A DNA stretch of 64,000 nucleotides. It comes from Falsiroseomonas stagni DSM 19981 (GTDB lineage Bacteria > Pseudomonadota > Alphaproteobacteria > Acetobacterales > Acetobacteraceae). This document shows positions 4,930 to 53,554 of the stretch, piece after piece. The stretch lies in the NCBI RefSeq assembly GCF_900114315.1, contig NZ_FOSQ01000008.1:124001-188000 (forward strand), written 5' to 3'. A program made the translations under genes and the position numbers. Position 1 is the stretch's first letter, and every line of letters starts with the position of its first letter. The notes beneath the pieces were generated by a model. It was not told the DNA's origin and searched no databases. It was given only the letters and a program-made list of their open reading frames with translations.

Positions 4930-4987
4930 GGGGAAGGCGCTGCCTTCCCCCGACCCCATCCGCCAGGGCCGAGACGGCCCTGGACCG
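4930..4987 (-). repeat. Two-hairpin repeat unit 1 (probable bidirectional terminator)
   Basis: Two perfect 9-bp stems: GGGGAAGGC/GCCTTCCCC (4930-4950, loop GCT) and CCAGGGCCG/CGGCCCTGG (4963-4983, loop AGA), joined by CGACCCCATCCG. It lies between two convergent genes and ends next to the stop of the TTT receptor gene. The same architecture recurs at six other places in this window. Unit 5 at 53.5 kb is nearly identical in the opposite orientation. Confidence 0.8.
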
Positions 4988-4994
4988 TCTTCAG

Positions 4995-5984
4995 CTACCC
5001 TGCATTCTGGGGCTGGACGCCAGCCGCCCGCGCCGCAGCGCCCCACTTCTCCAGCTCGGCCTGCACGAAGGTCCGGGTATCGTCGGGGTTGGAGACCACG
5101 ACCTCCGCACCCAGCGTGCGATGCCGCGCCACCACATCGGGACGCTGCACGGCGGCGGTGATCTCCCGGTGCAGGCGATCCAGCACCGGCGGGGGCAGGT
5201 TGGCCGGGCCCATCACCATGCCCCAGGTCGAAGCCTCGAACCCCGCCACGCTCTCCCCCAAGGTCGGCACATCGGACAGCTGCGGCGCGCGGGTCGCGCC
5301 GGTGGTGGCCAGCGCCTTCAGCGTGCCCGCCTGGATATGCGGCAGCGCGGCCGGGACCGTGTCGAACATGATGTCGACGCGCCCGGCGATCAGGTCCGGA
5401 TGCGCCTGGGTCGATCCGCGATAGGGCACATAGGTCATCTCGATGCCCGTGCGCTGGCCGAACAGCACCGGGGCCAGGCGCACCACGCCGCCCGTGCCGG
5501 CGAAGGTCACATGCCCGGCCGGGTTGCGCTTGGCATGCGCCACCAGCTCCGCCGGCGTGGAGGCCACGAAATTCCGGGCGGCGCAGAGCACCAGCGGCGT
5601 CCGCGTGGTCAGGGTGATGAAGGTGAAGTCCCGCATCGTGTCATAGGGCAGCCGGTAGAAGGCCGCGTTCACGGGATGGCCCACGGAAACCAGCGCCAGG
5701 GTGTGCCCATCGGCGGGCGACCGCGCCACGGCCTCCGTCCCGATCACGCCATCGGCGCCGGCCCGGTTCTCCACCGGCACCGCCACGCCCATGGCAGCGG
5801 ACATGGGGTCCGCGATCAGCCGGGCCGTGATGTCGGAGACGCCGCCCGGCGTATAGGGCACGACGATGCGGACGGGGCGGGACGGAAAGGCCTGGGCGCG
5901 CGCGGCGCGGCTGCCGAGGGCCAGGATGGGGACAGCCAGGGCGGGCGCGGCCAGCAAAGCCGCGCGGCGGGTGATCAGGGTCAT
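4995..5984 (-). CDS. Bug-family TTT solute-binding receptor (TctC-like)
   Basis: Periplasmic receptor of the tripartite tricarboxylate transporter type, 329 residues. It has a twin-arginine-like/Sec signal (MTLITRRAALLAAPALAVP), the family opening FPSRPVRIVVPYTPGG, and the carboxylate-binding region around NRAGADGVIGTEAVAR and VPYRGSTQAHPDLIAGRVD. The ATG at 5984 follows GGAGGAAGCGCC; an upstream in-frame extension is ignored. No TctA/TctB genes are adjacent, so it is an orphan receptor. Such receptors may share a membrane component such as the TctAB encoded at 15-17 kb. Ligand unknown, probably an organic acid. Confidence 0.85.
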   Translation of the reverse strand: MTLITRRAALLAAPALAVPILALGSRAARAQAFPSRPVRIVVPYTPGGVSDITARLIADPMSAAMGVAVPVENRAGADGVIGTEAVARSPADGHTLALVSVGHPVNAAFYRLPYDTMRDFTFITLTTRTPLVLCAARNFVASTPAELVAHAKRNPAGHVTFAGTGGVVRLAPVLFGQRTGIEMTYVPYRGSTQAHPDLIAGRVDIMFDTVPAALPHIQAGTLKALATTGATRAPQLSDVPTLGESVAGFEASTWGMVMGPANLPPPVLDRLHREITAAVQRPDVVARHRTLGAEVVVSNPDDTRTFVQAELEKWGAAARAAGVQPQNAG

Positions 5985-6071
5985 GGGCGCTTCCTCCTCC
6001 GGTCTCACGCCGGTCCAGCCATGCTGGACCCGGCGGGAAACCAGGGGAAGGCCGTTCGGCCCCGGCGGGGT

Positions 6072-7004
6072 TCAGGCCGCCTTGGGGCGCGCCCCCAGCA
6101 GATGCGCGATGGCATAGGTCAGGTCGGCGCGGTTCAAGGTGTAGAAGTGGAACTCGTCCACCCCGTTCGCCTGCAGCAGCCGAACCTGTTCCGCCGCGAT
6201 GGCCGCGGAGACCATCCGGCGCGTCTCCGCATCCTCGTCCAGGCCCTCGAACAGCTTGCCCATCCAGGCGGGGACGGAGGCGCCGCACATGGCGCTGAAC
6301 TTCTTCACCTGGGAGAAATTAGACACGGGCAGGATGCCCGGGACGATGGGCACGGTGATGCCCGCCGCCGCGCAACGGTCGATGAAGCGGAGGTAGATGT
6401 CCGTGTCGAAGAAGTACTGCGTGATCGCCCTGGTCGCGCCGGCGTCGATCTTGCGCTTCAGGAAATCGAGGTCCGCATCGGCCGAGGTCGCGGCGGGATG
6501 AGTTTCCGGATAGGCACCGACGCTGATGTCGAAATCGCCGATTCGGCGAAGGCCCCGCACCAGATCCTCGGCCTGCGCATAGCCGCCGGGATGCGGCGTG
6601 TACTGGCTGGCGCCGGCCGGCGGGTCGCCGCGCAGCGCCACGATGTGGCGGACGCCGGCCTCCAGGTAGCCGCGCGCGACCTCATCGACCTCCGCCTGGG
6701 TGGCGCCGACGCAGGTCAGGTGCGCGGCGGGGGTCAGGCTGGTTTCCTTCGCCAGGCGCGCCACCGTCTCATGCGTCCGGGTCCGGGTGGTGCCGCCGGC
6801 GCCGTAGGTGACGGAGACGAAGCGCGGGCCCAGCGGCTCCAGCCGCCGGATCGCGGCCCAGAGGGATTGCTCGAGGGCCTCGTTCTTGGGTGGGAAGAAC
6901 TCGAAGGACAGCTTCGGTGGCGGCATCTCGCTCGGCACGGGAAGCCCGGCCACGCGGGGGCCGGTGAGCCAGCGCTGCAAGGTGCCGGGATAGGCCTGGT
7001 CCAT
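6072..7004 (-). CDS. metF: 5,10-methylenetetrahydrofolate reductase MetF
   Basis: Flavin-dependent reduction of methylene-THF to methyl-THF, supplying the methyl group for methionine. A single TIM-barrel domain of 310 residues, the usual bacterial length. Diagnostic motifs are SFEFFPPKN, FVSVTYGAGG, the folate/FAD region HLTCVGATQ, LRGDPP, ITQYFFD and PGILPVSNF. The ATG at 7004 was chosen because the conserved N terminus begins about 28 residues later, as in the family; a longer open frame upstream shows no similarity. I looked for a SAM or SAH riboswitch in the 203-nt gap upstream and could not recognise one. Confidence 0.95.
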   Translation of the reverse strand: MDQAYPGTLQRWLTGPRVAGLPVPSEMPPPKLSFEFFPPKNEALEQSLWAAIRRLEPLGPRFVSVTYGAGGTTRTRTHETVARLAKETSLTPAAHLTCVGATQAEVDEVARGYLEAGVRHIVALRGDPPAGASQYTPHPGGYAQAEDLVRGLRRIGDFDISVGAYPETHPAATSADADLDFLKRKIDAGATRAITQYFFDTDIYLRFIDRCAAAGITVPIVPGILPVSNFSQVKKFSAMCGASVPAWMGKLFEGLDEDAETRRMVSAAIAAEQVRLLQANGVDEFHFYTLNRADLTYAIAHLLGARPKAA

Positions 7005-7207
7005 CGGTCCGTTCTCTCGCCTGCCGCAGAAGGGCCGCCCCGCCACCCGGCGGGAACCCGCGGTTGATATGACTGTTCGTAACTTCGGCGGCACCGTTGT
7101 TCCGTTGGCCGCCCGCGCCGCATATAAGGAAGACCCTGCGGGCCGGGAAGGGCTGGCGCGCACGGTCAGGTTGTGCCCCACCCCTTCCGCCCTTCGGAGG
7201 TCCATCG

Positions 7208-8062
7208 TTGAGCCGCATGACGCCCCCCCGCCAGAGCCTGATGGCGAAGCGCCTTGCCGTGCCGGTGCTGGCACTCGGTCTGGCCCTCGGCCTTTCCGCC
7301 TGCGCCACGCGCCCGGACCCCGCGGATGCTGAAGCCGTCGCCGAATTCAACGCCAACAACGACCCGCTGGAGCCGCTGAACCGCGGCGCCTACTTCGTGC
7401 ATGACGGCATCGATACCCTGGTGCTGCGCCCGGCGGCGGAGATCTACCGCGTCTTCCTGCCGCCGGAACTGCGCACCGCCATCCGCAACGTGCTGGCGAA
7501 TCTCCGCACCCCCGTCATCCTGGTGAACGACCTGCTGCAGGGCGACACGCAGCGTGCCGCCACCACGATGGGGCGGTTCCTGGTGAACACCACGGTCGGC
7601 ATCGGCGGCGTCTTCGACCGCGCGACGGAGTTCGGCCTGCTCGGCCACACCGAGGATTTCGGCCAGACCCTGGCCGTCTGGGGCGCGCCGGAAGGCCCCT
7701 ACCTCTTCATCCCCGTGCTCGGCCCGTCCAACCCGCGGGACCTGGTGGGAACCGGAGTCGATACCGCCTTCCACCCCCTGACCTGGGCCGGCAACAGCGG
7801 GGAGACGCTGGAAGCCATCACCATCACCCGCACCGCCCTCACCGCCCTCGACACGCGGGAGAGCCTGATCGAGACGGTGGAGCAGGTGAGGACGGGATCA
7901 CTCGATCCTTACGCCACGATCCGCAGCGCCTATCGCCAGCGGCGCGTTGTGGAGATCCGCAACCAGGGTGGCGCCCCCGCGGCGGCGCGCGGGACCGGCT
8001 TCGGGGCCGGCACCGGCGTGCCGCAACAGGGCCGCCCGGGCGCGCCGACGCCGCAGCGCTGA
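7208..8062 (+). CDS. mlaA: Outer-membrane lipoprotein MlaA (VacJ)
   Basis: Outer-membrane component of the Mla pathway, which removes misplaced phospholipids from the outer leaflet and passes them to periplasmic MlaC. The protein has 284 residues. Its lipoprotein signal ends in LGLSAC, followed by the MlaA core: NDPLEPLNRGAYFVHDGID, NVLANLRTPVILVNDLLQG, GRFLVNTTVGIGGVFD and the GPYLFIPVLGPSNPRD stretch. TTG at 7208 is taken as the start because GGAGG at 7196-7200 sits exactly 7 nt upstream; ATG at 7217 is the alternative. The C-terminal 35 residues are a Gly/Pro/Gln-rich tail. mlaC follows after 23 nt. Confidence 0.92.
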   Translation: MSRMTPPRQSLMAKRLAVPVLALGLALGLSACATRPDPADAEAVAEFNANNDPLEPLNRGAYFVHDGIDTLVLRPAAEIYRVFLPPELRTAIRNVLANLRTPVILVNDLLQGDTQRAATTMGRFLVNTTVGIGGVFDRATEFGLLGHTEDFGQTLAVWGAPEGPYLFIPVLGPSNPRDLVGTGVDTAFHPLTWAGNSGETLEAITITRTALTALDTRESLIETVEQVRTGSLDPYATIRSAYRQRRVVEIRNQGGAPAAARGTGFGAGTGVPQQGRPGAPTPQR

Positions 8063-8085
8063 TCGCTGCCCGCGCGCCCCTACAG

Positions 8086-8730
8086 ATGGACCGCATGATG
8101 CAAACGCTTGACCGACGCAGCCTGCTGATCGCCGCCGCCGGCCTGGCCCTGATGGGCCGGGCAGCCCATGCGCAGCAGATCGATCCCGCCCGCGCCACCG
8201 CCTTCATCCAGCAGACCGGTGAGGAACTGGTGGCCGCCATCAACGCCGTCGGCGCCCCGGTGGCGCAGCGGCGGGAAAGGGTGGCCGCCGTGCTGCGGCG
8301 CGCGGTGGATGTGGAAGGCGTCGGCCGCTTCATCCTCGGCCGTTTCTGGCGCACCGCCTCCGCCGAGCAGCAGGCCGAATACCTGAAGCTGTTCGAGGAG
8401 ATCCTGATCCGCAACCTCTCCGCCCGCTTCGGCGAATACCAGGGGGTGCGCTTCTCCCTCGGCCGCAGCCAGGCGCGAACGGAGGAGGACGTGCTGGTCA
8501 ACACCGTCGTCGAACGCCCCGGCACCGCGGCCTTCGGCCTCGACTGGCGCGTGGCGGAGGTGGGCGGCGTGCCGCGCGTGGTCGACGTGATCGCGGAAGG
8601 CACCAGCCTGCGCCTGACCACGCGCAGCGAATACAGCAGCGTCATCAGCCGCAATGGCGGCAATGTCGGCAGCCTGCTGACGGCGATGCGCCAGCAGATC
8701 CAGCAGCTGGCGGCCCGCGAAGGGGGCTGA
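8086..8730 (+). CDS. mlaC: Periplasmic phospholipid carrier MlaC
   Basis: Periplasmic phospholipid shuttle of the Mla system, 214 residues, with an RR-containing signal peptide (LDRRSLLIAAAGLALMGRAAHA). The Ttg2D/MlaC fold is recognised from GRFILGRFWRTASAEQQAEYLKLF (residues ~85-105) and the IRNLSARFGEYQG region. It pairs with mlaA immediately upstream. The inner-membrane MlaFEDB complex is not in this window. The stop codon lies inside the first arm of a terminator hairpin. Confidence 0.9.
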   Translation: MDRMMQTLDRRSLLIAAAGLALMGRAAHAQQIDPARATAFIQQTGEELVAAINAVGAPVAQRRERVAAVLRRAVDVEGVGRFILGRFWRTASAEQQAEYLKLFEEILIRNLSARFGEYQGVRFSLGRSQARTEEDVLVNTVVERPGTAAFGLDWRVAEVGGVPRVVDVIAEGTSLRLTTRSEYSSVISRNGGNVGSLLTAMRQQIQQLAAREGG

Positions 8731-8740
8731 AGCCCCCTTC
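8719..8740. terminator. Terminator hairpin between mlaC and the GNAT gene
   Basis: Perfect 9-bp stem GAAGGGGGC/GCCCCCTTC with loop TGAA, overlapping the mlaC stop codon. It sits between convergent genes and could serve both. No long T-tract follows. Confidence 0.65.
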
Positions 8741-8742
8741 CC

Positions 8743-9270
8743 TCACCCGGCCGGCGGAAACGCCTCGAAGACCAGCATCTCCCGCCCCCGGTAGTGGAAG
8801 CGGTCGCACTCCGCCATGCCGAGGTCGGTCAGCACCGCCCGGCTGGCGTGGTTGCCTTCCCAGGCGACGGCGACGATCCGCTTCAGCCCCCGCCGGAACC
8901 CGAAGGCGAGCGCGGCGCGGGCGGCCTCCCGCGCGTAGCCCTTGCCGCGGCAGGACGGCCACAGCGCGAAGCGCACCGCGACTCCGCGGCCATCCGGGCG
9001 TTCCATCAGCCCTGCGATGCCCAGGAAATCGCCGGTGCCGCGTTCGAAGACGGCCCAGGTGCCGTAGCCCCGGACCAGCCAGAACTCCATGTCGTCCTCA
9101 AGCTCCTCCCGCGCCCGGTCGGGCGTGCGGGTGCCATGGAGCATGAGGCCGAAGGCGGCCTCGTCGGCCTTCAGGCGGATCAAATCGGGCAGGTTCTCCG
9201 GCGCCACGGGACGGAGCGAAAGCCGCTCCGTCGTGATTCCGTTGCCTTCCGCCAGCCTGGCGGGGACCAA
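8743..9270 (-). CDS. GNAT N-acetyltransferase, RimJ/RimL type
   Basis: Acetyl-CoA-dependent acetyltransferase of 175 residues. The order TERLSLRPVAPENLPDL, MEFWLVRGYGTWAVFE, FLGIAGLM, CRGKGYAREAARAAL (acetyl-CoA pyrophosphate loop, Q/RxxGxG/A type) and NHASRAVLTDLGM matches the RimJ/RimL branch, which acetylates protein N termini or small amines. Target unknown. Only a TTG start (9270) is available just downstream of the ettA stop at 9275, so it is probably translated from the ettA transcript. A second, unrelated-in-detail GNAT of the same branch lies at 25.3 kb. Confidence 0.8.
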   Translation of the reverse strand: MVPARLAEGNGITTERLSLRPVAPENLPDLIRLKADEAAFGLMLHGTRTPDRAREELEDDMEFWLVRGYGTWAVFERGTGDFLGIAGLMERPDGRGVAVRFALWPSCRGKGYAREAARAALAFGFRRGLKRIVAVAWEGNHASRAVLTDLGMAECDRFHYRGREMLVFEAFPPAG

Positions 9271-9274
9271 GGTC

Positions 9275-10954
<1,680 letters not shown>

Positions 10955-11026
10955 TGGTTCGGCTTCCGGAGGACGGGCGGGAGGCGGGGGTTTTACCGCG
11001 CCGTACTGGCGGCTGCAAACAGGCCC

Positions 11027-11079
11027 GCAGGGGGACGCCGTCCCCCTGCACCCCCTGCCAAGGGCCAGCGGGCCCTTGG
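11027..11079 (-). repeat. Two-hairpin repeat unit 2a
   Basis: Stem 1 is GCAGGGGGAC/GTCCCCCTGC (11027-11049, loop GCC), then ACCCCCTG, then stem 2 CCAAGGGCC/GGCCCTTGG (11058-11079, loop AGCG). It has the same layout as unit 1 with different but still complementary arms. A near-identical first stem occurs in unit 3a, 22 kb away. Confidence 0.8.
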
Positions 11080-11097
11080 AACCCTTGTATTGACGAT

Positions 11098-11169
11098 GGT
11101 CCAGGGGGCTCTGCCCCCCAAATCTTCCAGAGGGGGCGAATGGGGTGTGGGGAAGGCAGCGCCTTCCCC
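11098..11169 (+). repeat. Two-hairpin repeat unit 2b
   Basis: Opposite orientation to unit 2a. It starts with GGTCCA, then stem GGGGGC/GCCCCC (11104-11118, loop TCT), a longer linker carrying ATGGGGT, and stem GGGGAAGGC/GCCTTCCCC (11149-11169, loop AGC). It ends 8 bases before the stop of the enoyl-CoA hydratase gene. Units 2a and 2b fill most of the 223-nt gap between that gene and ettA. Confidence 0.75.
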
Positions 11170-11177
11170 ACCGGGAC

Positions 11178-11984
11178 TCACCGCCCCTTGAACTGCGGCG
11201 GCCGCTTCTCGAGGAACGCCTTCCGGCCCTCGTTGTAGTCATCGCTCGCGAAGCACGCCTTCACCATGGCGTCGCAGGCGGCCTCGTTCGCCGCGCCGCG
11301 GTCCTTCAGCGCCTCGCCCACGATGAACTTCACGCTGCCGACCGTCAGCGGCGCGTTGCCCGCGATGGTCTTCGCGTAGTCCAGGACGAAGTCTTCCAGC
11401 TTGTCGTTCGGCACCACGCGGTTCACGAGGCCCATGATCCGCGCATCCTCCGCGCCCCACTTCTTCGCGGTGAAGAAGATCTCCTTGGCGAAGGACGGCC
11501 CGACCAGGTCCACCAGGCGGCGGATGCCGGACAGCGGGTAGCCGAGGCCGAGCTTGGCCGCGGGCACGCCGAAGCTCGCCGTCTCACCACAGATGCGCAT
11601 GTCGCAGCAGACGGCGAGTGCGGTGCCGCCGCCGATGCAATGGCCCTGGATCATCGCGATGGTGGGCTTCGGGCATTCGGCCAGCGCGTCATAGACCTTG
11701 GCGGTCTGCGCCTGGTAGGCGGCGACGGCCGCTTCGCCGCTGCGCTCGCTCTCGAACTTGGAGATGTCGGCGCCGCTGACGAAGGCCTTGCCGCCCGCGC
11801 CGGTCACGACGATGACGCGGACCGCATCATCGGCCTTGAAGTCGGCCAGGATACGCTCGGCGGCCTGCCACATCTCCATGGAGACGGCGTTGTGGCGTTC
11901 CGGGTTGTTGAAGGTCATCCAGCCGATGCCATCGGCCTTGCGGGCCAGCATCTTCTCGCTGCCCGTCACCATCATGCCGTCCAT
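11178..11984 (-). CDS. Enoyl-CoA hydratase/isomerase family protein
   Basis: Crotonase-fold enzyme of 268 residues that acts on acyl-CoA thioesters. The two oxyanion-hole segments are visible: GKAFVSGADISKF and IQGHCIGGGTALAVCCDMRI. Positions equal to the catalytic glutamates of classical hydratases are not obvious, and the family also contains isomerases, hydrolases and carboxylate-specific lyases, so the reaction is open. The ATG at 11984 follows GAGGA. Transcribed in the same direction as, and 126 nt downstream of, the CaiB-type CoA transferase, with which it may form a CoA-activation/processing pair for the acid imported by TctCBA. Confidence 0.85.
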   Translation of the reverse strand: MDGMMVTGSEKMLARKADGIGWMTFNNPERHNAVSMEMWQAAERILADFKADDAVRVIVVTGAGGKAFVSGADISKFESERSGEAAVAAYQAQTAKVYDALAECPKPTIAMIQGHCIGGGTALAVCCDMRICGETASFGVPAAKLGLGYPLSGIRRLVDLVGPSFAKEIFFTAKKWGAEDARIMGLVNRVVPNDKLEDFVLDYAKTIAGNAPLTVGSVKFIVGEALKDRGAANEAACDAMVKACFASDDYNEGRKAFLEKRPPQFKGR

Positions 11985-12074
11985 TTTCTGTTCCTCAAAC
12001 GCCGGCGCGGCCTGCTGCCGCTTGGCTTCGCGCCTACGCGCTGTGGCGCTGGTTGCGATGTCGGTCTGTGCGCG

Positions 12075-12092
12075 GGCCGCCTTTCGGCGGCC
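12075..12092 (-). terminator. Hairpin downstream of the CoA transferase gene
   Basis: Perfect 7-bp stem GGCCGCC/GGCGGCC with loop TTTC, 19-36 bases past the stop of the CaiB-type gene. The rest of the 126-nt gap to the hydratase gene holds nothing I recognise. Confidence 0.5.
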
Positions 12093-12110
12093 AACGCCAT
12101 TCCTGGTGTG

Positions 12111-13319: not shown

Positions 13320-13386
13320 CGGTGGTTTCTCCTGGACCGCGACTGTCTAGCACCGCCCCCCGCCGGCGCAAATCCGCCTCCGCCAA

Positions 13387-13396
13387 CTGTTGACAG
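13387..13396. promoter_or_regulatory. Candidate operator in the CaiB/GntR divergent region
   Basis: CTGT-TG-ACAG inverted repeat between the two divergent start codons. It also contains TTGACA (13390-13395) in the orientation of gntR, though I see no good -10 element behind it. GntR/FadR-type regulators usually bind short palindromes of this kind next to their own gene, so this is a plausible autoregulatory site. Confidence 0.35.
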
Positions 13397-13426
13397 ATGG
13401 CAGTCCGCATCGGCACCCTCCGCGCC

Positions 13427-15586: not shown

Positions 15587-15590
15587 GGTC

Positions 15591-19134: not shown

Positions 19135-19141
19135 CGGGAGT

Positions 19142-25141: not shown

Positions 25142-25223
25142 TGCGGGCGGCGGGGATCGAACCCGCATGGCCAAGGGCCGAGGGTTTTTAAGACCCTTCC
25201 GTCTACCGTTCCGGCACGCCCGC
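25142..25223 (-). tRNA. tRNA-Leu (anticodon UAA)
   Basis: 82-nt cloverleaf. Acceptor stem GCGGGCG/CGCCCGC with discriminator A; D-arm CCGGAACGGTAGACGG; anticodon stem AGGGT/ACCCT around loop CTTAAAA, giving anticodon TAA; a short long-arm; T-arm GCGGG-TTCGATC-CCCGC. The 3' CCA is not encoded. The long variable arm and the UAA anticodon fix the identity as leucine. Confidence 0.93.
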
Positions 25224-33679: not shown

Positions 33680-33732
33680 GCAGGGGGACGCTGTCCCCCT
33701 GCACCCCCTGCCAGGAGGCAGCGGCCTCCTGG
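33680..33732 (-). repeat. Two-hairpin repeat unit 3a (between crtN and crtP)
   Basis: Stem GCAGGGGGAC/GTCCCCCTGC (33680-33702, loop GCT), linker ACCCCCTG, stem CCAGGAGGC/GCCTCCTGG (33711-33732, loop AGCG). It matches unit 2a in layout and in the first stem. The second stem is instead identical to the one in unit 4. Confidence 0.8.
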
Positions 33733-33744: not shown

Positions 33745-33796
33745 GAACGTTGGTGAGGGAGGGGGGCACTTCGGCCCCCCTCCCTCACCAACGTTC
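33745..33796. repeat. 23-bp perfect inverted repeat, 6-nt loop, between crtN and crtP
   Basis: Arms at 33745-33767 and 33774-33796 are exact complements; the outer end reads GAACGTTGGTGAGGG and the inner end is a G6/C6 run; loop ACTTCG. Transcribed from crtN toward crtP it would fold into a very stable hairpin. It has no T-tract, so it may block exonucleases, act as a processing site or attenuate the downstream genes rather than terminate fully. Confidence 0.85.
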
Positions 33797-33803: not shown

Positions 33804-33857
33804 GCGGGGCCCGGGGGGCGCCACGCCCCCCGGCGGGGGTCCAGGGGGCAGCGCCCC
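33804..33857 (+). repeat. Two-hairpin repeat unit 3c (between crtN and crtP)
   Basis: Stem CCGGGGGGCG/CGCCCCCCGG (33811-33833, loop CCA), linker CGGGGGTCCA, stem GGGGC/GCCCC (33845-33857, loop AGC). Orientation opposite to unit 3a, so the long 23-bp hairpin is flanked by two inward- or outward-facing units. It starts 22 bases past the crtN stop. Confidence 0.7.
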
Positions 33858-33879
33858 ATGGAGTGCTCCCCAGCCTCGC

Positions 33880-41490: not shown

Positions 41491-41503
41491 CTGATCTGAT
41501 TCC

Positions 41504-42376: not shown

Positions 42377-42379
42377 GGG

Positions 42380-43678: not shown

Positions 43679-43684
43679 GCGCCG

Positions 43685-44200: not shown

Positions 44201-44267
44201 GGGCGCATCTCCGGGCTGGGGGAGGGCAGCAAGAGAGGGGGCGCCCGAAGGCGCCCCCGGCAGGCGA

Positions 44268-45254: not shown

Positions 45255-45297
45255 CTCGTCCCGTCTCCTTCCCGTACCCGGCGGATGCTCCACCGGC

Positions 45298-45337
45298 TTA
45301 TATGACATCATACAACCAGCCGGCGGCGCCTTGTCAA
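45298..45337 (-). promoter_or_regulatory. Promoter and near-palindromic operator of the uronate operon
   Basis: Reading the minus strand, TTGACA (45337-45332) is followed by an 18-bp near-palindrome TTGTATGATGTCATATAA (45315-45298; arms match at 7 of 8 positions). TATGAT inside it gives a 19-nt spacer to TTGACA. A bound regulator would cover the -10 region and repress dctPQM-udh. The shape is typical of GntR/FadR-family sites; no regulator gene is adjacent. Confidence 0.6.
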
Positions 45338-45389
45338 ATGGGTGAACCGCGGAGTGGCCGGGGAACGGAACCCGCCGCCGCGCGCTGTC

Positions 45390-45569
45390 ATGCCGTGGGC
45401 GGAGAAGCACGGCATGGACCGGGAAGACGAGATCGAGGATGCGGAGGAGACCGAGGTGCCGCTGGTACCCGCCGCCGCCGTGGGCTTTCTCCTGTACCCC
45501 TGGGCTGTCCAGCTCATCCTGGCCGTCCCGCCGGCGAATGACCAGGGCGAGGCCAAGCCGCCCCGCTGA
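45390..45569 (+). CDS. Small hypothetical membrane protein
   Basis: Short protein of about 59 residues: an acidic N terminus (DREDEIEDAEETEVP), one hydrophobic helix (LVPAAAVGFLLYPWAVQLILAV) and a short polar tail. ATG 45390 or 45414 are both possible. Divergent from the uronate operon and 71 nt upstream of the amidase gene. I do not recognise it, but the clean charge-helix-tail architecture supports a real small membrane protein. Confidence 0.4.
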   Translation: MPWAEKHGMDREDEIEDAEETEVPLVPAAAVGFLLYPWAVQLILAVPPANDQGEAKPPR

Positions 45570-45640
45570 AGCCGGCAAGGGTTGCGCTGGGCCCCCGTCC
45601 TGCGCAGCATCCCGCGTCACTTCCGCGGGATTTCGCCAGC

Positions 45641-46990: not shown

Positions 46991-47316
46991 ACCCGAATCC
47001 TCGTTTCGGCGCGCTCGGCGCCGGTGCCACGGCGCGTGAGGGTGGCGAGGCCGTCGCCATCCTGCTGGCGGAGAAGGGCGTGACGGTGGAGCGCATCGCC
47101 AGCCGCCGCGCCGCCAGCCCCGCCGGCTTCTGGTATGACCAGCCCGCGACGGAGTTCGTGCTGCTGGTGGCGGGCGAGGCCGGGCTGGGCTTCGACGATG
47201 GCAGCGAGCGCAGGATGGTGGCCGGCGACTGGGCCGTGCTTCCCGCCCATTGCCGCCACCGCGTCGCCTGGACCAGCGAGGCCGCGCTGTGGCTGGCCGT
47301 GCATCTGCCTGGCTGA
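46987..47316 (+). CDS. Small cupin-domain protein
   Basis: Protein of 109 residues forming one cupin barrel: WYDQPATEFVLLVAGEAGLGFDDG and LPAHCRHRVAWTS. The usual metal-binding HxH is reduced to a single His in the second motif, so a metal-dependent reaction is uncertain. GTG at 46987 overlaps the amidase stop (GTGA). Coupled expression suggests an accessory or ligand-binding role with the amidase. A ribosome-independent alternative start was not found. Confidence 0.7.
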   Translation: MNPNPRFGALGAGATAREGGEAVAILLAEKGVTVERIASRRAASPAGFWYDQPATEFVLLVAGEAGLGFDDGSERRMVAGDWAVLPAHCRHRVAWTSEAALWLAVHLPG

Positions 47317-47321
47317 TCGAT

Positions 47322-47381
47322 GATGGTCCAGGAGGCTCTGCCTCCTGGCGGTAGGGGTCTGGGGAAGGCAGCGCCTTCCCC
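47322..47381 (+). repeat. Two-hairpin repeat unit 4 (probable bidirectional terminator)
   Basis: GATGGTCCAGGAGGC with stem CCAGGAGGC/GCCTCCTGG (47328-47348, loop TCT), linker CGGTAGGGGTCT, then stem GGGGAAGGC/GCCTTCCCC (47361-47381, loop AGC). Located between the convergent cupin and eutC genes, 5 bases from the eutC stop. Confidence 0.8.
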
Positions 47382-47385
47382 AGTT

Positions 47386-48126
47386 CTACTTGAGTAGCGT
47401 CGGTGTCTCGCCTTCCAGCACCGCCGGCTGTTCATCCTTCAGCCCCACCCCGGTCAGCCCCAGCCGCCGGGCCGCCGCCACCAGCCACAGCAGCTTCGCC
47501 GCCGCATCGGCCGGGGAGATGCCGCCGGGCCGGATGTTGCTGATGCAGTTGCGCTCCGCGTCGTTGCGGCCGGTGCGCGGGGCGTGGGTAAGGTAGATGC
47601 CCATGCTGTCCAGCGATGACAGGCCGGGCCGTTCCCCGATCAGCACCGCGACCATCGCCGCGCCCAGCGCCTGGCCGATATCGTCCCCGATGGCGACCCG
47701 CGCCTGGGTCGCGATGACGGGCGGTGCCACATCCCAGCCTGCGCGTTCCAGCCCGGGGATCAGCGCCGCCAGCAGCGGCGCCGCCTGCGCCTGCACGCCG
47801 CTGGCGCAGAGGCCGTCGGCGATGACGATGGCGAAGCAGCCGGGCCGTGGCGCCAGTTGGGTGCCCTCCGCCAGCCGCCGTCCGAGATCAGGGCGCAGGA
47901 GGTAGCTGCGCCGGTCCGGCGCGGCCGAGGCAACGATCTGCGCGCCTGGCAGCGCGGCGGCCAGCGACGCGGTGTCGAGCGCGGACCACACTGCGTCCCG
48001 CGCCTGCGCATGCGCTTCCTGGAAATCGAGATGCGCCGCCGTCGGCAGCGCGTGGCCGACGCGCCCCAGCCCGACCCGTGCGCTGGTGAAGCGCCGCAGG
48101 TCCCGCCACAGCGTCGGCGCCGTCAC
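47386..48126 (-). CDS. eutC: Ethanolamine ammonia-lyase small subunit EutC
   Basis: Small subunit of the adenosylcobalamin-dependent lyase that splits ethanolamine into acetaldehyde and ammonia; 246 residues. Recognised from FTSARVGLGRVGHALPT, the B12-contact region IVIADGLCASGVQAQA, VAIGDDIGQALGAAMVAVLIGERPGLSS, and the strongly conserved YLTHAPRTGRNDAERNCISNIRPGG. GTG start overlapping the eutB stop (GTGA). No eutA reactivase, permease or microcompartment genes are near, as in the minimal proteobacterial eutBC arrangement. Confidence 0.93.
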   Translation of the reverse strand: MTAPTLWRDLRRFTSARVGLGRVGHALPTAAHLDFQEAHAQARDAVWSALDTASLAAALPGAQIVASAAPDRRSYLLRPDLGRRLAEGTQLAPRPGCFAIVIADGLCASGVQAQAAPLLAALIPGLERAGWDVAPPVIATQARVAIGDDIGQALGAAMVAVLIGERPGLSSLDSMGIYLTHAPRTGRNDAERNCISNIRPGGISPADAAAKLLWLVAAARRLGLTGVGLKDEQPAVLEGETPTLLK

Positions 48127-49487
48127 AGCAGCCCCGCCACGGTCATCGGTGCGGGCAGCGCCTCCGGTGTCCGCTCCGCCAGGCCCATCCGTTCCAGCCA
48201 GGCCGCGAATTCGGGCGCGGGCTTCTTGCCCAGCGCGGCGCGGGCATAGAGCCCGTCATGGAAGGAAGTGGATTGGTAGGCCAGCATCGTGTCGTCCGCG
48301 CCGGGCACGCCCATGACATAGGTCACGCCCGCCACGCCCAGCAGCGTCAGCAGCGCATCCATGTCGTCCTGGTCGGCCTCCGCATGGTTGGTGTAGCAGA
48401 CATCGACCCCCATCGGCAGGCCGAGGAGTTTTCCGGCGCAGTGATCCTCCAGCCCGGCGCGGATGATCTGCTTGCCGTCATAGAGGTATTCGGGGCCAAT
48501 GAACCCCACCACGGAGTTCACCAGCAGCGGCCGGAATTCCCGCGCCACCGCATAGGCCCGCACTTCCAGCGTCTGCTGGTCCACGCCGTGATGGGCATTG
48601 GCCGACAGCGCGCTGCCCTGCCCGGTCTCGAAATACATGACGTTGTCCCCGACCGTGCCCCGCTTCAGCGCCAGCGCCGCCTCATGCGCTTCCCGGAGCA
48701 CGCTCAGCGACACGCCGAAGGAGGTGTTGAGCCCCTGCGTGCCGCCGATCGACTGGAACACGAGGTCCACCGGCGCGCCGCGCTCCATCGCCAGCATCGT
48801 CGTCGTCACATGCGCCAGCACGCAGGATTGCGTCGGGATGGCGTAGCGGTCCCGCACCGCATCCAGCAGGCCCAGCACGCGGCAGAGATTGTCGACGTTG
48901 TCGGTGGCGGGGTTCACGCCGATCACGGCATCGCCGGCGCCGAGCAGCAGCCCGTCCAGCACCTGCGCGGCGATGCCCTTGGGGTCATCCACGGGATCAT
49001 TCGGCTGCAACCGGATCGACAGCGTCCCCGGCAGCCCGAGCGTGTTCCGGAACCGCGTGGTGACGCGGCACTTGGCCGCGATGGCCACCAGATCCTGCAA
49101 CCGGCAGATTTTCGTCAGCCCCGCCACCATCTCCGGCGTCAGCCCCGGGGCGAGCGCGCTGATCGCGGCGCCATCGGCCTCCGCCAGCAGCCAGTCCCGG
49201 AAGCCGCCGACGGTCAGGTGCGCGACCGGCGCGAAGGCCGCCGCGTCGTGCCGGTCCAGGATCAGCCGCGTGACCTCGTCATCCTCGTAAGGCACAACGG
49301 CCTCATGCAGGAAATGCGACAAGGGGAGATCCGCCAGCGCCCGCTGCGCCGCCACCCGCTGCGCCGCTGACTCGGCGGCGACGCCCGCCAGCGCGTCACC
49401 GGACCGGAAGGGGGTGGCGCAGGCCAGCAGCGCCCGCAGATCGGGAAACACATGGCGCGTACCGCCGACGATCTGCGCGAAACCCAT
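48123..49487 (-). CDS. eutB: Ethanolamine ammonia-lyase large subunit EutB
   Basis: Catalytic TIM-barrel subunit of 454 residues. Features: TKICRLQDLVAIAAKCRV, RLQPNDPVDDPKGIAAQVLDGLL, DAVIGVNPATDNVDNLCRVL, IPTQSCVLAHVTTTM, LVFQSIGGTQGLNTSFGVSL, FETGQGSALSANAHHGVDQQTLEVRAY and CYTNHAEADQDDMDALLTLLG. Length equals the E. coli enzyme. Starts at ATG 49487. The 105-nt upstream region to the divergent comD-like gene is too short for a full cobalamin riboswitch and I see none. Confidence 0.95.
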   Translation of the reverse strand: MGFAQIVGGTRHVFPDLRALLACATPFRSGDALAGVAAESAAQRVAAQRALADLPLSHFLHEAVVPYEDDEVTRLILDRHDAAAFAPVAHLTVGGFRDWLLAEADGAAISALAPGLTPEMVAGLTKICRLQDLVAIAAKCRVTTRFRNTLGLPGTLSIRLQPNDPVDDPKGIAAQVLDGLLLGAGDAVIGVNPATDNVDNLCRVLGLLDAVRDRYAIPTQSCVLAHVTTTMLAMERGAPVDLVFQSIGGTQGLNTSFGVSLSVLREAHEAALALKRGTVGDNVMYFETGQGSALSANAHHGVDQQTLEVRAYAVAREFRPLLVNSVVGFIGPEYLYDGKQIIRAGLEDHCAGKLLGLPMGVDVCYTNHAEADQDDMDALLTLLGVAGVTYVMGVPGADDTMLAYQSTSFHDGLYARAALGKKPAPEFAAWLERMGLAERTPEALPAPMTVAGLL

Positions 49488-49592
49488 GCCACCCCCTGCG
49501 CCCTGAAACCGCGGCGATCACATGGCATCGGCCGCCCCCGCTTGCCAACACCATTCCCGCACCCGATCCTGCCGCCACGACGGAGGAAGCAG

Positions 49593-50144
49593 ATGGATCG
49601 CGACGCGCTGGAAATGCGCCCCGATGCGGCGGCCGATTGGCCTGACCGCATCTACGCCGTGCTCAAGGCCCAGAACATCACCCAGGTCGCCCTGGTGCCG
49701 GATGCCGGCCACTCACGCCTCATCAAGCGCTGCCTGGCCGACAACGCGATCACGGTCGTCACCCTGACGACGGAGGAGGAAGGCATCGCGCTCCTCTCCG
49801 GCGCCTGGATGGGCGGCGTGAAGGGCGTGCTGCTGATGCAATCATCCGGCGTCGGCAACTGCATCAACATGCTGTCCCTGCCCATCCTGCACCGCACGCC
49901 GATGCCGATGATCGTGACCATGCGGGGCGACTATGGGGAGTTCAACCCGGCCCAGATCCCCATGGGCAACGCGACCCAGACCGTGCTGGAAGCCATGGGC
50001 ACGCTGGTCCGCCGCGCCGACGTACCCGAAGACGTGGAAGCCTGCGTGGACGCCACCATACGCATGGCCTTCAACACCTACCGCCCGACCGCCACACTGC
50101 TCGGCCAGCGCCTGATCGGCGCCAAGACCTTCGGGAAGGACTGA
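49593..50144 (+). CDS. ComD-like alpha subunit of a ThDP-dependent 2-oxoacid decarboxylase
   Basis: Protein of 183 residues corresponding to the N-terminal (PYR) domain of ThDP decarboxylases: the catalytic-Glu stretch TTEEEGIALLSGAWMGGVKGVLLMQSSGVGN shortened by nothing unusual, followed by IPMGNATQTVLEAMG. The pattern EEEGI...GG.K..LLMQ.SG.GN.IN is the one found in archaeal ComD, alpha subunit of sulfopyruvate decarboxylase, and related phosphonopyruvate decarboxylases. ATG 49593 has CGGAGGAAGCAG upstream. The beta subunit follows after 5 nt. Substrate (sulfopyruvate, phosphonopyruvate or another 2-oxoacid) is not settled by sequence alone. Confidence 0.8.
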   Translation: MDRDALEMRPDAAADWPDRIYAVLKAQNITQVALVPDAGHSRLIKRCLADNAITVVTLTTEEEGIALLSGAWMGGVKGVLLMQSSGVGNCINMLSLPILHRTPMPMIVTMRGDYGEFNPAQIPMGNATQTVLEAMGTLVRRADVPEDVEACVDATIRMAFNTYRPTATLLGQRLIGAKTFGKD

Positions 50145-50149
50145 GGCCC

Positions 50150-50752
50150 ATGCTCGCAGCTTCCGGCAAGCTCGACCGCCGCGCCGTCGTCAACGCCCTG
50201 CTGGCGGATCGCGGCGACCTCCTCGTCATCGCCGGCCTCGGGGCGCCGGCTTGGGACATCACCGCCGCCGGCGATTGCCCGACCAACCTCCCCCTCTGGG
50301 GCGGGATGGGCGGCGCGGCGGTCATGGGCCTCGGCCTCGCCCTCGCCCAGCCCACCCGCCGCGTGCTGGTCATCACAGGGGATGGGGAGGCGCTGATGGG
50401 CCTCGGCGCGCTGGCCACCATCGCGACGAAACAGCCGCCCAACCTCTCCATCGTCGTGCTCGACAACGAACATTACGGCGAGACTGGCGGGCAGGAGACG
50501 GCGACGAAACACGGCGTGGACCTGGCCGCCATCGCCCGCGGCGCGGGAATCGCCGATGCGCGCACCATCACGACGCCGGACGGCATCGCACCACTGCGGG
50601 AGGCGATCCACACCGCCGCAGGGCCAACGCTTGCGGTCATCAAGATCGATGCGGCGAACCTGCCGCTGAAACTTCCACCGCGGGAAGGCGCCTACCTCGC
50701 GGCCAGGTTCAGGGAAGCGATCCTGGGGCCGCAGGCCCATCATCAACTGTAA
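50150..50752 (+). CDS. ComE-like beta subunit of a ThDP-dependent 2-oxoacid decarboxylase
   Basis: Protein of 200 residues corresponding to the PP domain. The ThDP/Mg binding motif GDGEALMGLGALATIATKQ, closed about 25 residues later by VVLDNEHYGETGGQ, is complete. N-terminal LPLWGGMGGAAVMGLGLALAQPTRRV matches the beta subunit of ComDE. It forms the active site with the upstream alpha subunit at the dimer interface. Followed by a terminator and then by a 2-hydroxyacid dehydrogenase gene, which suggests a 2-hydroxyacid to 2-oxoacid to aldehyde route. Confidence 0.82.
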   Translation: MLAASGKLDRRAVVNALLADRGDLLVIAGLGAPAWDITAAGDCPTNLPLWGGMGGAAVMGLGLALAQPTRRVLVITGDGEALMGLGALATIATKQPPNLSIVVLDNEHYGETGGQETATKHGVDLAAIARGAGIADARTITTPDGIAPLREAIHTAAGPTLAVIKIDAANLPLKLPPREGAYLAARFREAILGPQAHHQL

Positions 50753-50773
50753 GCGTCGACCCCCTCACCCACC

Positions 50774-50819
50774 GTTGGGCGCAGTGCGCCCAACCCCCCT
50801 TCCGGCGGAGGGGGCTTTT
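50774..50819 (+). terminator. Terminator after the ComDE-like genes
   Basis: First a 9-bp stem GTTGGGCGC/GCGCCCAAC (50774-50794, loop AGT), then CCCCCT/AGGGGG (50795-50814) followed by CTTTTC, the best Rho-independent terminator in the window. It lies 16 bases before the hydroxyacid dehydrogenase start, so that gene depends on read-through or its own promoter. Confidence 0.7.
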
Positions 50820-50835
50820 CAAATGAGACCTGTCA

Positions 50836-51816
50836 ATGCCGCACGTCATCTGCGTACGACCCATCCATGAAGCGGCCATCGAGAAGATGCGCAGCACGGA
50901 AGGCGTCACCGTCGAGATCCTGATGGACATCTCGCCGGAAAGCCTGGCCCGCAACCTGCCCCGCGCCGACGCGCTGATCGTCCGCACCATCCGCATCGAC
51001 CGGCCCTTCCTGGCCCACTGCACCAACCTCCGCCTCCTCGCCCGCCACGGCGTCGGCTACGACGCGGTGGATGTGCCCGCCCTCACGGAACGCGGCATCC
51101 CGCTGACCATCACGCCGGAAGCCAACGCGGTCTCCGTCGCCGAACACGCGCTGATGCTCATGCTCGCCTGCGCGCGGCAGCTTTCGGGCTACGATTCGAA
51201 CCTGCGGCAGGCCAAGCCCGTCTGGGGCGGGCAGGCCAACCTCCCGACCTTCGACCTGGCCGGCAAGACCGTGCTGGTCGTGGGCTTCGGGCGGATCGGC
51301 ACGCGCGTGGCCAAGCTCTGCGCCGCCTTCGGGATGAAGGTCCTGGTGCGCGATCCCAACATCGGCAAGGGCAGCATCCGCGGCCTGGGCTTCACGCCCG
51401 TGGACGATGTGATGGAAGCGGCGGCGGAAGCCGACATCGTCACCATCCACTGCCCCTCCGACGCCTCCACCCGCCACATGGTGAACGCGCCCTTCCTGGC
51501 GCGCATGAAGAAGGGCGCGGTCTTCATCAACACCGCCCGCGGCACGCTGGTGGACGAAGCCGCGCTGGATGCCGCGCTGCGCGCCGGGCACCTCGGCGCC
51601 GCGGGCATCGACGTCTTCCACGACGAACCCGTGGAGACCGCGATCCCCCTGCTGACCGCCCCCAACCTGATCTTCACCCCCCATGTCGCCGCCAGCACGG
51701 CGGAAGGCCTGGCTCGGATGGCGATGGATGCGGCGGAAGCCTGCCTCGCCTGCTTCGACGGCACGCTCGACCCCGATATCGTGGTGAACAAGGAAGTGCT
51801 CGCCGGAAGGAACTGA
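50836..51816 (+). CDS. D-isomer-specific 2-hydroxyacid dehydrogenase
   Basis: NAD(P)-dependent dehydrogenase of 326 residues. Rossmann motif [21 protein letters not shown], catalytic Arg in [15 protein letters not shown], Glu in [11 protein letters not shown] and His in [13 protein letters not shown]. It resembles the catalytic part of SerA without the regulatory ACT domain. Sulfolactate dehydrogenase SlcC, phosphonolactate or hydroxypyruvate enzymes belong to the same group. Next to a ComDE-like decarboxylase, a substrate that yields sulfopyruvate or a similar 2-oxoacid is a reasonable but unproven guess. ggt follows after 4 nt. Confidence 0.85.
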
Positions 51817-51820
51817 CGCC

Positions 51821-53494
51821 ATGCGCCGCCTGCTCGCTTTGCTGCTGCTGGCGGCGTCCCCCGCCGCGGCCGAACCGGCGCGCGCCCCGCGCCAGATGGT
51901 CGCCACTGCCAGCCCGCAGGCGACGGCAGCGGCGCTCTCCATCCTCCGCGACGGCGGCACCGCGGTGGATGCCGCCATCGCCGCCCAGGCCGCGCTCTCC
52001 GTCGTGGAGCCGCACGCCAGCGGGTTGCTCGGCGGCGCCTTCGTCCTCGTCTGGGACGAAGGCCAGCGCCGGCTGCGCTACTACGAGGGCATCGCCAGCG
52101 CCCCCGCCGCCAGCGCCGATCGCCTGACCGCAGGCGGCGTCGGCCCCGCCACCGTCGCGCGTTCCGGCCGCGCCGTCGCCGTGCCTGGCGCCATCGCCGC
52201 CCTCGCCTTGGCGCGGGAAGCGCATGGCCGCCTGCACTGGGCCGAACTCATCGGCCCTGCCATCGCGCTGGCCGAGCAGGGCTTCCCGCTGCCGCCTTAC
52301 CTGGCGCAGGTCATCCGCGCCCGCGCGGCCGAACTCCGCCGCGTGCCCACGCTCCGCGCCCTCTATTTCGATGCCGCCGGCGAACCCCTCGTCGCCGGCA
52401 CCCCCTTCCGCAACCCGGACCAGGCGGAGGCGCTGCGCCTGCTGGCCGTGCAGGGCTCCGCCGCCATCCATGGCGGCCCCATCGGCCAGGCGCTGGTGGA
52501 GGCGACGCAGGCCCATGCCGTTCCCGGCTGGATCACCCTCGACGATCTGCGCGCCTATCGCGCGGTGGAGCGTGATCCCGTCTGCATGGTGGCCTTCGCG
52601 CACCAGGTCTGCACCGCCGCGCCGCCTTCCTCCGGCGGCGTCGCCGTACTGCAGACGCTTGGCATCGCGGAGCGCCTCGGCATCGCACGCCAGGCGCGGG
52701 ACAGTGCGGAGGCCGCGCATCTGTTCCTGGAGGCAAGCCGCCTGGCCACGGCGGATCGCCGCCGCTGGATCGGCGATCCCGATCGCGTCGCGGTGCCGCT
52801 ACGCGGCCTGGTCGATGCCCGCTACCTCGATGACCGCGCGGCGCTGGCCAGCGCCGATCGCGCCATGGCGAATGTCGCGCCCGGCACGCCGCCCGACCAG
52901 CGCGGCGCCCTGCCCGCGGAGAGCGATCCCTGGGCGGAGGCCGCGACGACGCAAATCGTCATCGTCGATGCGCGGGGCAACGCCGTCTCCCTCACCACCA
53001 CCAACAATCTGAACTTCGGGGCCGAACTCACGGCGATGGGCGTCACGCTGAACAACGGCATGACGAATTTCGCGACCAGCCCGGGCACGGCGGAGGCGCC
53101 GGCGCAGAACCGGCTGGAGCCGGGCAAGCGTCCCGTCACGACGATGGCGCCGACCATGGTGATGGGTGCGGATGGCAGGCCGGTGATCGTGCTCGGTGCC
53201 GGGGGCGGCGCGCGGATCCCCGATGCGGTTGCCGCCGCACTGGTGGAGATGCTCGCCTTCGGCGCCGATGCCGAACGCGCCACCGCCCGCCCGCGCATCG
53301 GCGCGCAGAACGGGGTGGAGGAGCTGGAGCGCGGCACGCCGGCCGAGGCCCTGGCGCCCGCGCTGACCGCGCTCGGCCACGCCCCGCGTGCGGTGGTGAT
53401 GAATACCGGCCTGCAGATCATCCGCCGCCTGCCGGATGGCACGCTGGAGGGCGCTGCCGACCCCCGCCGCGACGGCATCGCCGCCGGCGACTGA
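51821..53494 (+). CDS. ggt: Gamma-glutamyltransferase family protein
   Basis: Periplasmic Ntn-hydrolase of 557 residues with a signal peptide ([16 protein letters not shown]). Large-subunit landmarks: [30 protein letters not shown] and [16 protein letters not shown]. Autocatalytic cleavage would be before the Thr of [22 protein letters not shown], and [16 protein letters not shown] follows. In most GGTs the cleavage motif is TTHxS(V/I)VD; here the His is Gln and the Ser is Ile, though the nucleophile Thr is kept. The lid-loop type cannot be told. Four bases after the hydroxyacid dehydrogenase gene, so likely co-transcribed. Cephalosporin-acylase-like members are an alternative. Confidence 0.85.
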
Positions 53495-53497
53495 CGA

Positions 53498-53554
53498 CGG
53501 TCCAGGGCCGGTTCGGCCCTGGCGGATGGGGTTTTGGGAAGGCGGCGCCTTCCC
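53498..53554 (+). repeat. Two-hairpin repeat unit 5 (probable bidirectional terminator)
   Basis: ACGGTCCAGGGCCG with stem CCAGGGCCG/CGGCCCTGG (53502-53522, loop GTT), linker CGGATGGGGTTTT, stem GGGAAGGC/GCCTTCCC (53536-53554, loop GGC). Convergent junction ggt/TTT receptor. Its complement is unit 1 with changes confined mainly to loops and linker. Confidence 0.8.

Follow-up and report, generated by a model that had tools for sequence, protein, structure and literature searches.

The 64,000-nucleotide window analysed here, a stretch of the genome of Falsiroseomonas stagni DSM 19981 (contig NZ_FOSQ01000008.1, positions 124,001 to 188,000), contains seven copies of an intergenic repeat with a common plan, consisting of a first hairpin whose 3-nt loop joins a purine-rich 5' arm to a pyrimidine-rich 3' arm, a linker starting with A-CCCC, a second hairpin and a trailer. 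In the family to which these units belong, the letters of the linker track the 3' arm of hairpin 1 read in mirror image, i.e., they are parallel-complementary to the 5' arm, and this three-way sequence rule is, to near certainty, real. The form of the rule makes it likely that a DNA triple helix is what is selected, and the best reading of the repeats is that they constitute a new mobile family of two-module triplex repeats, of a kind already known from the BoxC/PIT/TM_ECO elements of Escherichia coli.

Copy number and covariation of the hairpin arms

The exact stem GGGGAAGGC-N3-GCCTTCCCC occurs at 61 sites in the 6.38-Mb genome (reversed control, 0), and natural cores of hairpin 1 include GGGGAAGGC, GCAGGGGGAC, GGGGGGAGC, GAGAGGGGC and many more. 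A covariance model built from 38 units, mostly collected by perfect stems, finds 93 units at E <= 0.01 in 1.664 Mb of the F. stagni genome including the window, at least 150 units in the whole genome, and 149 in the relative G200. Part of the 1.664 Mb (stretches of C24 and C19) was picked for containing matches, so no density is extrapolated from it. The existence of many further copies (at least 150) bears out the initial annotation, which had described the seven window units as a repeat family.

In the 38-unit alignment, standard pairs fill 99.2% of 642 pair cells and two-sided changes occur in 15 of 17 pairs. The 93 model matches (92 distinct rows) contain standard pairs in 98.6% of 1473 cells versus 81.6% in shuffles, two-sided changes in 17/17 pairs versus 10.7, and a covariation score of 0.453 versus 0.179; none of 500 shuffles reaches the observed standard pairing, two-sided pair count or covariation score. 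The count of pair types does not stand out for the 93 matches (27 versus 26.0 in shuffles) and falls below the shuffles for the 38-unit alignment. By score, pairing and two-sided changes the arms covary more than expected by chance, and the earlier proposal of selection for structure is supported.

Structures selected as RNA are normally rich in G-U pairs. The 1473 cells comprise 269 two-sided changes, 2 G-U pairs and 20 unpaired positions, and a replicate from the wider family (59 model matches in 29 loci) has standard pairs in 98.1% of 908 cells, with 157 two-sided changes, 7 G-U pairs and 17 unpaired positions. This scarcity of G-U pairs points to DNA, not RNA, as the selected molecule.

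The linker as a third covarying segment

Double hairpins were gathered blind to the letters of the linker, the requirements being a first stem of 8 bp or more closed by a 3-nt loop, a second stem of 7 bp or more, and a distance of 4-18 nt between the two. They came from the 1.664 Mb of F. stagni, 400 kb of G202 and 200 kb each of G207 and G143, the last of which yielded none by these criteria. Orienting by the hairpin-2 start and removing overlaps reduced 135 raw double hairpins to 79, and 5 that were not of the family or ran in the wrong direction were dropped, leaving 74 units with 14 cores and 41 core-linker pairs. Purine arm GGGGGGAGC, for example, is accompanied by linker CCCCCCTCG or CCCCCCACG, GGGGAAGGGAC by CCCCATCCCTG or CCCCAACCCTG, GGGGAGGGC by CCCCTCCCG, and GGGAAAGGC by CCCTATCCG. 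The strong/weak (S/W) agreement between linker and mirrored arm is 0.983 by core (majority linker) versus 0.686 for permuted linkers, and 0.971 versus 0.696 over all 41 pairs (p = 5e-5, the lowest value that 20,000 permutations can give); for exact complements the agreement is 0.899 versus 0.657. When the alternatives are compared by sliding, the mirror geometry reaches z = 10.3 and two other geometries are negative; a direct repeat of the 3' arm reaches z = 2.8 only, and this reading of the linker was rejected.

The rule recurs in other genomes of the family. From the best 42 of the 59 model matches in the 29 replicate loci (one of which, L247, belongs to the same genus), eight without a perfect stem were dropped, leaving 34 units (14 cores, 20 distinct pairs), in which mirror S/W agreement is 0.953 versus 0.700 permuted (z = 8.4, p = 5e-5). 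Some of the dropped units visibly follow the rule as well (TTGAGAGGGGC with ACTCTCCCCG; TTGAGGGGGGC with ACTCCCCCCG). The linker columns of the model are C-rich, so these matches are not linker-blind, and permutation within the set is the safeguard. Over the 43 distinct pairs of the combined sets, with the apical pair set apart and letters read on the C strand, the linker has C opposite G in 240/249 cases, and opposite A it has T in 33, A in 19 and C in 2 (A or T in 52/54). The initial annotation had recognised the covariation between the arms, but missed both the linker as a third covarying segment and the dependence of the trailer's sequence on hairpin 2.

Probable triplex class and selected strand

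Read on the G-rich strand, the segments place G over G:C and A or T over A:T, antiparallel, in the order reverse-Hoogsteen, purine, pyrimidine. In Holder et al. 2015 (PMC4666352), the purine-motif triplet rule is G.G:C with A or T on A:T, class I denotes the order purine-purine-pyrimidine (R-R-Y) on one strand, and the purine motif is described as unable to form in RNA. The units have this class I segment order (reverse-Hoogsteen R, R, Y) and follow the triplet rule within the limits of the ITxF/PIT motif definition (stems of 6-15, loops of 1-6), their spacers being mostly 1-4; in the first (74-unit) set, 3-nt hairpin loops were required. A triplex-motif finder that requires the mirror match returns mostly class I motifs in stretches of F. 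stagni and its genus (47/56 on C22) and no motif in block-shuffled sequence. Class II motifs form a minority in the F. stagni genome (9/56 on C22, 1/7 in the window). In the finder's output for 80 named loci around EutB, Acetobacteraceae supply every one of the 7 class I rows, and Pseudomonas, Xanthomonas, Ralstonia and Hymenobacter the 13 class II (TM_ECO-like) rows; three of these loci from Xanthomonas and Pseudomonas (L195, L202, L240) carry 2-4 such class II motifs per ~21-kb stretch around eutB. Another locus (L168, Dankookia rubra) has a 10/10 class I motif on the minus strand near 3552 with an A-rich core GGGGAGGAAA and third strand AAAGGTGGGG; no hairpin 2 is listed for it, and it possibly belongs to a separate family.

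The same segments, in the same order, also satisfy the geometry of a pyrimidine-type triplex on the C-rich strand (R-Y-Hoogsteen, class III), which might form in the RNA of the upstream gene and protect its 3' end. Units do sit directly after stop codons, pyrimidine-type triplexes do occur in RNA (PMC4666352), and T is the commoner letter opposite A:T (33/54). We nevertheless regard this alternative as unlikely: the pyrimidine rule needs T opposite every A:T, whereas A stands there in 19/54 cases; triplexes of C runs favor acid conditions, as noted in the same paper and as established chemistry has it; G-U pairs are few; and single units can have either side towards the stop codon.

Placement relative to genes

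When units less than 200 bp apart are merged, the 93 units form 66 loci, namely 27 tail-to-tail inverted pairs and 39 singles with no further arrangement, which agrees with the suggestion that the family is organised like repetitive extragenic palindromes (REPs) and bacterial interspersed mosaic elements (BIMEs). A gene caller trained on eight Pfam-supported window genes, and recovering these eight (its own training genes), places 34 loci between convergent genes, 27 between tandem genes, 3 between divergent genes and 0 inside genes (64 classed; 2 at stretch edges unclassed). The convergent share of 53% compares with 14% (maximum 29%) for random intergenic placements. A stop codon lies within 30 bp of 54 of the 61 loci having a neighbouring stop (median 4 bp), versus a mean of 25% and a maximum of 44% in 300 random intergenic placements, and a start lies within 30 bp of 5 of the 30 loci having a neighbouring start. 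Both stops are within 30 bp in 26 of the 34 convergent loci, so that the unit or pair nearly fills the gap. Single units present the tail side to the stop codon in 20 cases and the stem-1 side in 18, according to a rougher first gene caller, whose output placed 14/66 loci within genes and was wrong at three of the five loci in the window. Relative to local GC skew, which flips repeatedly along C22, the single units of C22 split 15/8/7/2 (Fisher p = 0.049); the G strand lies on the locally G-richer strand in 22/32 of them, a weak hint that possibly relates to replication or transcription direction.

The abundance of convergent loci with both stops close by is also what would be expected of intrinsic or bidirectional transcription terminators kept at gene ends for that function, and one window unit (U6) has a weak T-tract and is listed by a terminator scan. 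Yet a T-tract is found in 0/74 units on the C strand and 2/74 on the G strand, U6 included, and the scan of 11 kb returned 3 terminator-like sites, U6 among them, equal to the shuffled mean of 3.0. A terminator, moreover, requires no third strand and tolerates G-U pairs, and the PIT elements of E. coli are without terminator activity, as reported in PMC4666352. T-tract-less or Rho-dependent ends may occur at the units. Termination as the selected function nonetheless appears quite unlikely, and the earlier statement that the units double as terminators finds poor support. Together, the scarcity of G-U pairs and the near absence of T-tracts leave both RNA-level selection and intrinsic termination poorly supported.

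Run lengths and quadruplexes

A further possibility is that the repeats are ordinary palindromes in which only the lengths of G and C runs are matched, either because the 5' arm can switch its pairing partner between 3' arm and linker, or as an effect of a G-rich composition. The C-run of the linker does track the G-run of the arm, and length alone raises the permuted agreement from about 0.70 to 0.79. When permutation is confined to pairs of equal length, however, agreement is still 0.948 versus 0.791 (43 pairs, 23 core strings, z = 8.8, p = 5e-5), which shows that the matching extends to the A/T positions as such and runs in mirror, not antiparallel, order. Together with the low score of the direct-repeat model, this largely refutes the reading by run length alone, which we consider very improbable and rejected as an account of the linker. 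Selection of the G-rich strand for a G-quadruplex, suggested by the two or more G-runs of usually equal length on one strand, is extremely improbable, since the canonical motif of four G3+ runs in third strand plus purine arm is present in just 5/74 units and a quadruplex requires neither mirror order nor a perfect hairpin.

The preferred reading is a class I DNA triplex. The selected form would be the folded DNA strand of a mobile repeat. On the G-rich strand, the third strand precedes hairpin 1 and could lie antiparallel on the purine arm, forming reverse-Hoogsteen G.G:C, A.A:T and T.A:T triplets. The result would be an intrastrand triplex of class I and purine motif; a second, weaker module of like kind would be made by hairpin 2 with its trailer. 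Folding would occur when the strand is single (e.g., in the lagging-strand template, during repair, or in an excision intermediate), and a putative enzyme of the host or the element would handle the fold, which would give copies whose three strands match an advantage in multiplication or persistence. Copies would survive mostly past stop codons because nothing is broken there, and those just after stop codons may also insulate gene ends.

The second module

The outer pairs of hairpin 2 are CCAGG...CCTGG in most units, with variable inner pairs, and the trailer mostly begins with ACC. The trailer tracks the hairpin: CCAGG occurs with ACC, CCAAGG with AACC and CCAAAGG with AAACC, and a single unit combines CCAGAGG with ACACC. 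In 71/74 units (three of these after an extra G), the arm's A-run and the trailer's A/T-run have the same length, and agreement over four positions is 0.783 versus 0.605 permuted (p = 1e-4). Modules 1 and 2 occur in 40 combinations among the 74 units, with an association of 1.43 bits versus 1.05 permuted (maximum 1.31). A recurrent long form of hairpin 2, in which an insert (e.g., CCCTCTTGAAGATTCGG) separates CCGCC from the stem, is found at window positions 11093-11172 and at L019, L038, L057 and L089; at one orthologous site the long form is present in F. stagni and G204 and the short form in G200.

Gain, loss and mobility

At the stop codon of eutC, the unit is present in F. stagni and in G200, and the site is bare in G202 and G204 (EutC 90-93% identical). 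Orthologous sites were mapped on both flanks for 5/28 further sites from relatives and for 9/30 G200 loci. At four of the nine mapped G200 sites a second unit is present in F. stagni only, and among the five sites from relatives an extra unit occurs once in F. stagni and once in G204. This presence and absence of whole units between close relatives supports the spread that had been proposed, and the units are probably mobile or have been so recently.

At two of the nine G200 sites, hairpin 2 is identical while the linker and both arms of hairpin 1 differ as a set. At the first, GGGGGAC/GTCCCCC/CCCCCTG stands against GGGGGAGC/GCTCCCCC/CCCCCTCG, and at the second a module of G6, C6 and a third strand of 6 against a 5/5/5 module. 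Other mapped G200 sites have hairpin 2 changed on both arms, and one F. stagni copy has decayed, with a mutated arm and the linker lost. Since the module types at the changed sites recur elsewhere in the genome, exchange between copies is the likely route of these changes. Exchange would not create the mirror match, because polymerases copy only directly or complementarily.

The initial annotation suggested looking for an associated REP-type transposase (RAYT); the genomes do not support membership of the units in RAYT-driven REP families. The Y1 transposase domain PF01797, the one transposase family scanned, is found in 0/15 genomes of the genus, F. stagni included, and in 4/31 relatives having 12 or more unit matches (one further relative with 10 matches was left out). 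RAYT is accordingly not supported as the mobiliser in the genus. A search for half-units of an autonomous parent, made with one tail pattern, found none, and six unit pairs 1.3-4 kb apart were listed in the search for a gene-flanking autonomous parent.

Distribution in relatives

The exact stem GGGGGAGCGCYGCTCCCCC is present in only 2/200 genomes, F. stagni included, so the covariance model was used for the family-wide search. At E <= 1e-4 it has matches in 73/150 Acetobacteraceae genomes (again including F. stagni), many with 1-3 weak matches, and about 55 of the 150 reach 1e-5. In a class-wide draw, which scored fewer candidates per genome than the Acetobacteraceae set, 3/240 genomes reach 1e-5, namely F. 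stagni and two from other families (1-2 matches each). The best reading is that the family is largely confined to Acetobacteraceae. The isolated units in the two other families of the class (L310 in G337; L311 and L313 in G449) are possible cases of horizontal transfer; one example from outside Acetobacteraceae has a GGGAGGGC stem, the linker ACCCTCCCG and the hairpin CCAAGGGCC. Double hairpins collected with no filter on the linker also occur in Neoroseomonas soli and at least two metagenome-assembled genomes (12 rows, 21 loci).

Comparison with known repeats and significance

The closest known elements are the BoxC/PIT/TM_ECO repeats of E. coli, dispersed GC-rich triplex repeats that share the purine-motif rule in three segments, the inverted pairs and a strain-variable copy number (Holder et al. 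2015, PMC4666352). TM_ECO is class II (Y-R-R) with a narrow consensus, whereas the units described here are class I (R-R-Y), of another sequence, and have about 20 cores, most of them asymmetric, as well as a second hairpin module and a distribution largely within Acetobacteraceae. Membership in TM_ECO/BoxC, whose class II consensus is CCCTCNCCC-N3-6-GGGNGAGGG-N3-GGGNGAGGG, was rejected, the units being class I with other cores. Because the TM_ECO core comes close to a mirror palindrome, its variation hardly reveals which way the third strand runs, and the words 'covari' and 'compensat' are absent from the main text of the paper.

CGTC-tagged REPs are mostly alphaproteobacterial and are reported missing in Acetobacteraceae (Di Nocera et al. 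2013, PMC3733652). They resemble the present units in being palindromic, located downstream of genes, arranged as inverted dimers and without a dedicated transposase, but consist of single 8-9 bp stems with an almost invariably complementary A/T start, a CGTC tag and a CCA tail, as opposed to two GC-rich hairpins and a third strand. This assignment was rejected, as the units have two hairpins, hairpin 2 begins with CC or CG, and the tail ACCRTCRTC is found in part of the units only. RAYT-associated REPs and REPINs (GTAG REPs) are likewise high in copy number, palindromic and arranged in inverted pairs (PMC3733652); the present units differ in that no Y1 transposase was found in the genus, no GTAG tag is common to the units of the linker-blind collection, and two hairpins are combined with an interdependent linker. 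In titles and abstract starts, a literature search turned up no recognisable description of this repeat family and no recognised case of third-strand covariation in a bacterial repeat.

Several points weigh against the interpretation as a mobile DNA triplex. Stems were first collected by perfect complementarity, which biases the sets against G-U pairs, and the model-based sets lessen this bias but do not remove it. The 23 core strings include a few that are short or truncated (GGGC, GGGGG, GGGAAGGC), and the copying of modules between sites means that core types cannot be counted as independent events. The near-constant apical match of C to G is a non-standard triplet, and the rule of module 2 is weaker than that of module 1 and fades past four to five positions. 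TM_ECO itself folds as isolated single-stranded DNA, and in vivo footprinting gave no support for a stable triplex (PMC4666352). Finally, no mobilising enzyme was found in the scan for PF01797.

The role of DNA triplexes in living cells is an old open question. If the triplex is true, the family offers a rare view of evolution preserving such a structure. The E. coli triplex repeats fold in the tube, and their narrow, near-symmetric consensus says little about selection on the third strand. Because the cores of the present family are mostly asymmetric and diverse, the identity of the third strand, its antiparallel direction and its A/T tolerance are readable from evolution, and all three point to a purine motif in DNA. 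The chances seem evenly balanced that this is the first comparative-genomics case of a naturally selected DNA triple helix, with some 20 versions of a third strand co-evolving with both arms across a bacterial family, and with the fold acting as the ticket for a mobile element that has no known transposase, exchanges two triplex modules and lives at gene ends. The natural variants (matched and mismatched, present and absent alleles) could be used to study triplex formation, replication stalling and mobility. The family also represents a large set of repeats with no known transposase in a bacterial family where CGTC-type repeats are reported missing.

Units within the window

All seven units are present where the initial annotation placed them, and six are matched by one covariance model (U3 weakly). 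Arm changes in full stems are all matched on the opposite side, as had been described, with the outer pair lost in U7 and an imperfect hairpin 2 in U5. Three of the five loci are convergent and two tandem, and two carry inverted unit pairs, again in agreement with the earlier description. At gathering score, the sole Rfam match in the window is a tRNA at 25142-25223, with none on the units.

U1 (plus strand; model match 4929-4991) comprises hairpin 1 at 4930-4950 (R arm GGGGAAGGC, loop GCT, Y arm GCCTTCCCC), the linker at 4951-4962 with CGA before the third-strand segment CCCCATCCG (8/9 exact and 9/9 S/W against the mirror of the 3' arm), and hairpin 2 (CCAGGGCCG/CGGCCCTGG) at 4963-4983, followed by the trailer ACCGTC; the called convergent gene ends lie 4 and 3 bp from the model match. 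U2 (plus strand; also a model match) has hairpin 1 (GCAGGGGGAC/GTCCCCCTGC) at 11027-11049, the third-strand linker A-CCCCCTG (mirror 7/7) at 11050-11057, and hairpin 2 (CCAAGGGCC/GGCCCTTGG) at 11058-11079 with trailer AACCC. Its inverted, tail-to-tail partner U3 occupies 11093-11172 on the minus strand (E 5e-4), with hairpin 1 GGGGAAGGC, linker CCCCATTCG and the long variant of hairpin 2.

U4, a model match on the plus strand, consists of hairpin 1 (GCAGGGGGAC) at 33680-33702, the third-strand linker A-CCCCCTG at 33703-33710 and hairpin 2 (CCAGGAGGC/GCCTCCTGG) at 33711-33732. Between U4 and U5 lies a long middle hairpin (33745-33796, plus strand) with 23-bp arms GAACGTTGGTGAGGGAGGGGGGC/GCCCCCCTCCCTCACCAACGTTC and a 6-nt loop, several arm pairs of which differ in concert at the orthologous G200 site (L302). 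U5 (33804-33864, minus strand), a diverged cousin with CCGGGGGGCG...CGCCCCCCGG and an imperfect second hairpin, has no model match. A composite similar to this U4/long hairpin/U5 locus is found at C22 383440-383594.

U6 lies on the minus strand, with trailer ACCATCATC at 47319-47327, hairpin 2 (CCAGGAGGC/GCCTCCTGG) at 47328-47348, the third-strand linker A-CCCCTACCG at 47349-47358, and hairpin 1 (CTGGGGAAGGC...), the terminator-like part in the scan, adjoining the eutC stop at 47359-47383. U7, also on the minus strand, has hairpin 2 (CCAGGGCCG/CGGCCCTGG) at 53502-53522 with trailer ACCGTCGTCA, the third-strand linker AAAA-CCCCATCCG at 53523-53535, and hairpin 1 (TTGGGGAAGGC...GCCTTCCC), a model match, at 53536-53557. 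The trailer of U7 overlaps the TGA stop (53492-53494) of a gamma-glutamyltransferase gene (TGACGACGGTCC from 53492; window 53490-53501), so units may have shifted gene ends.

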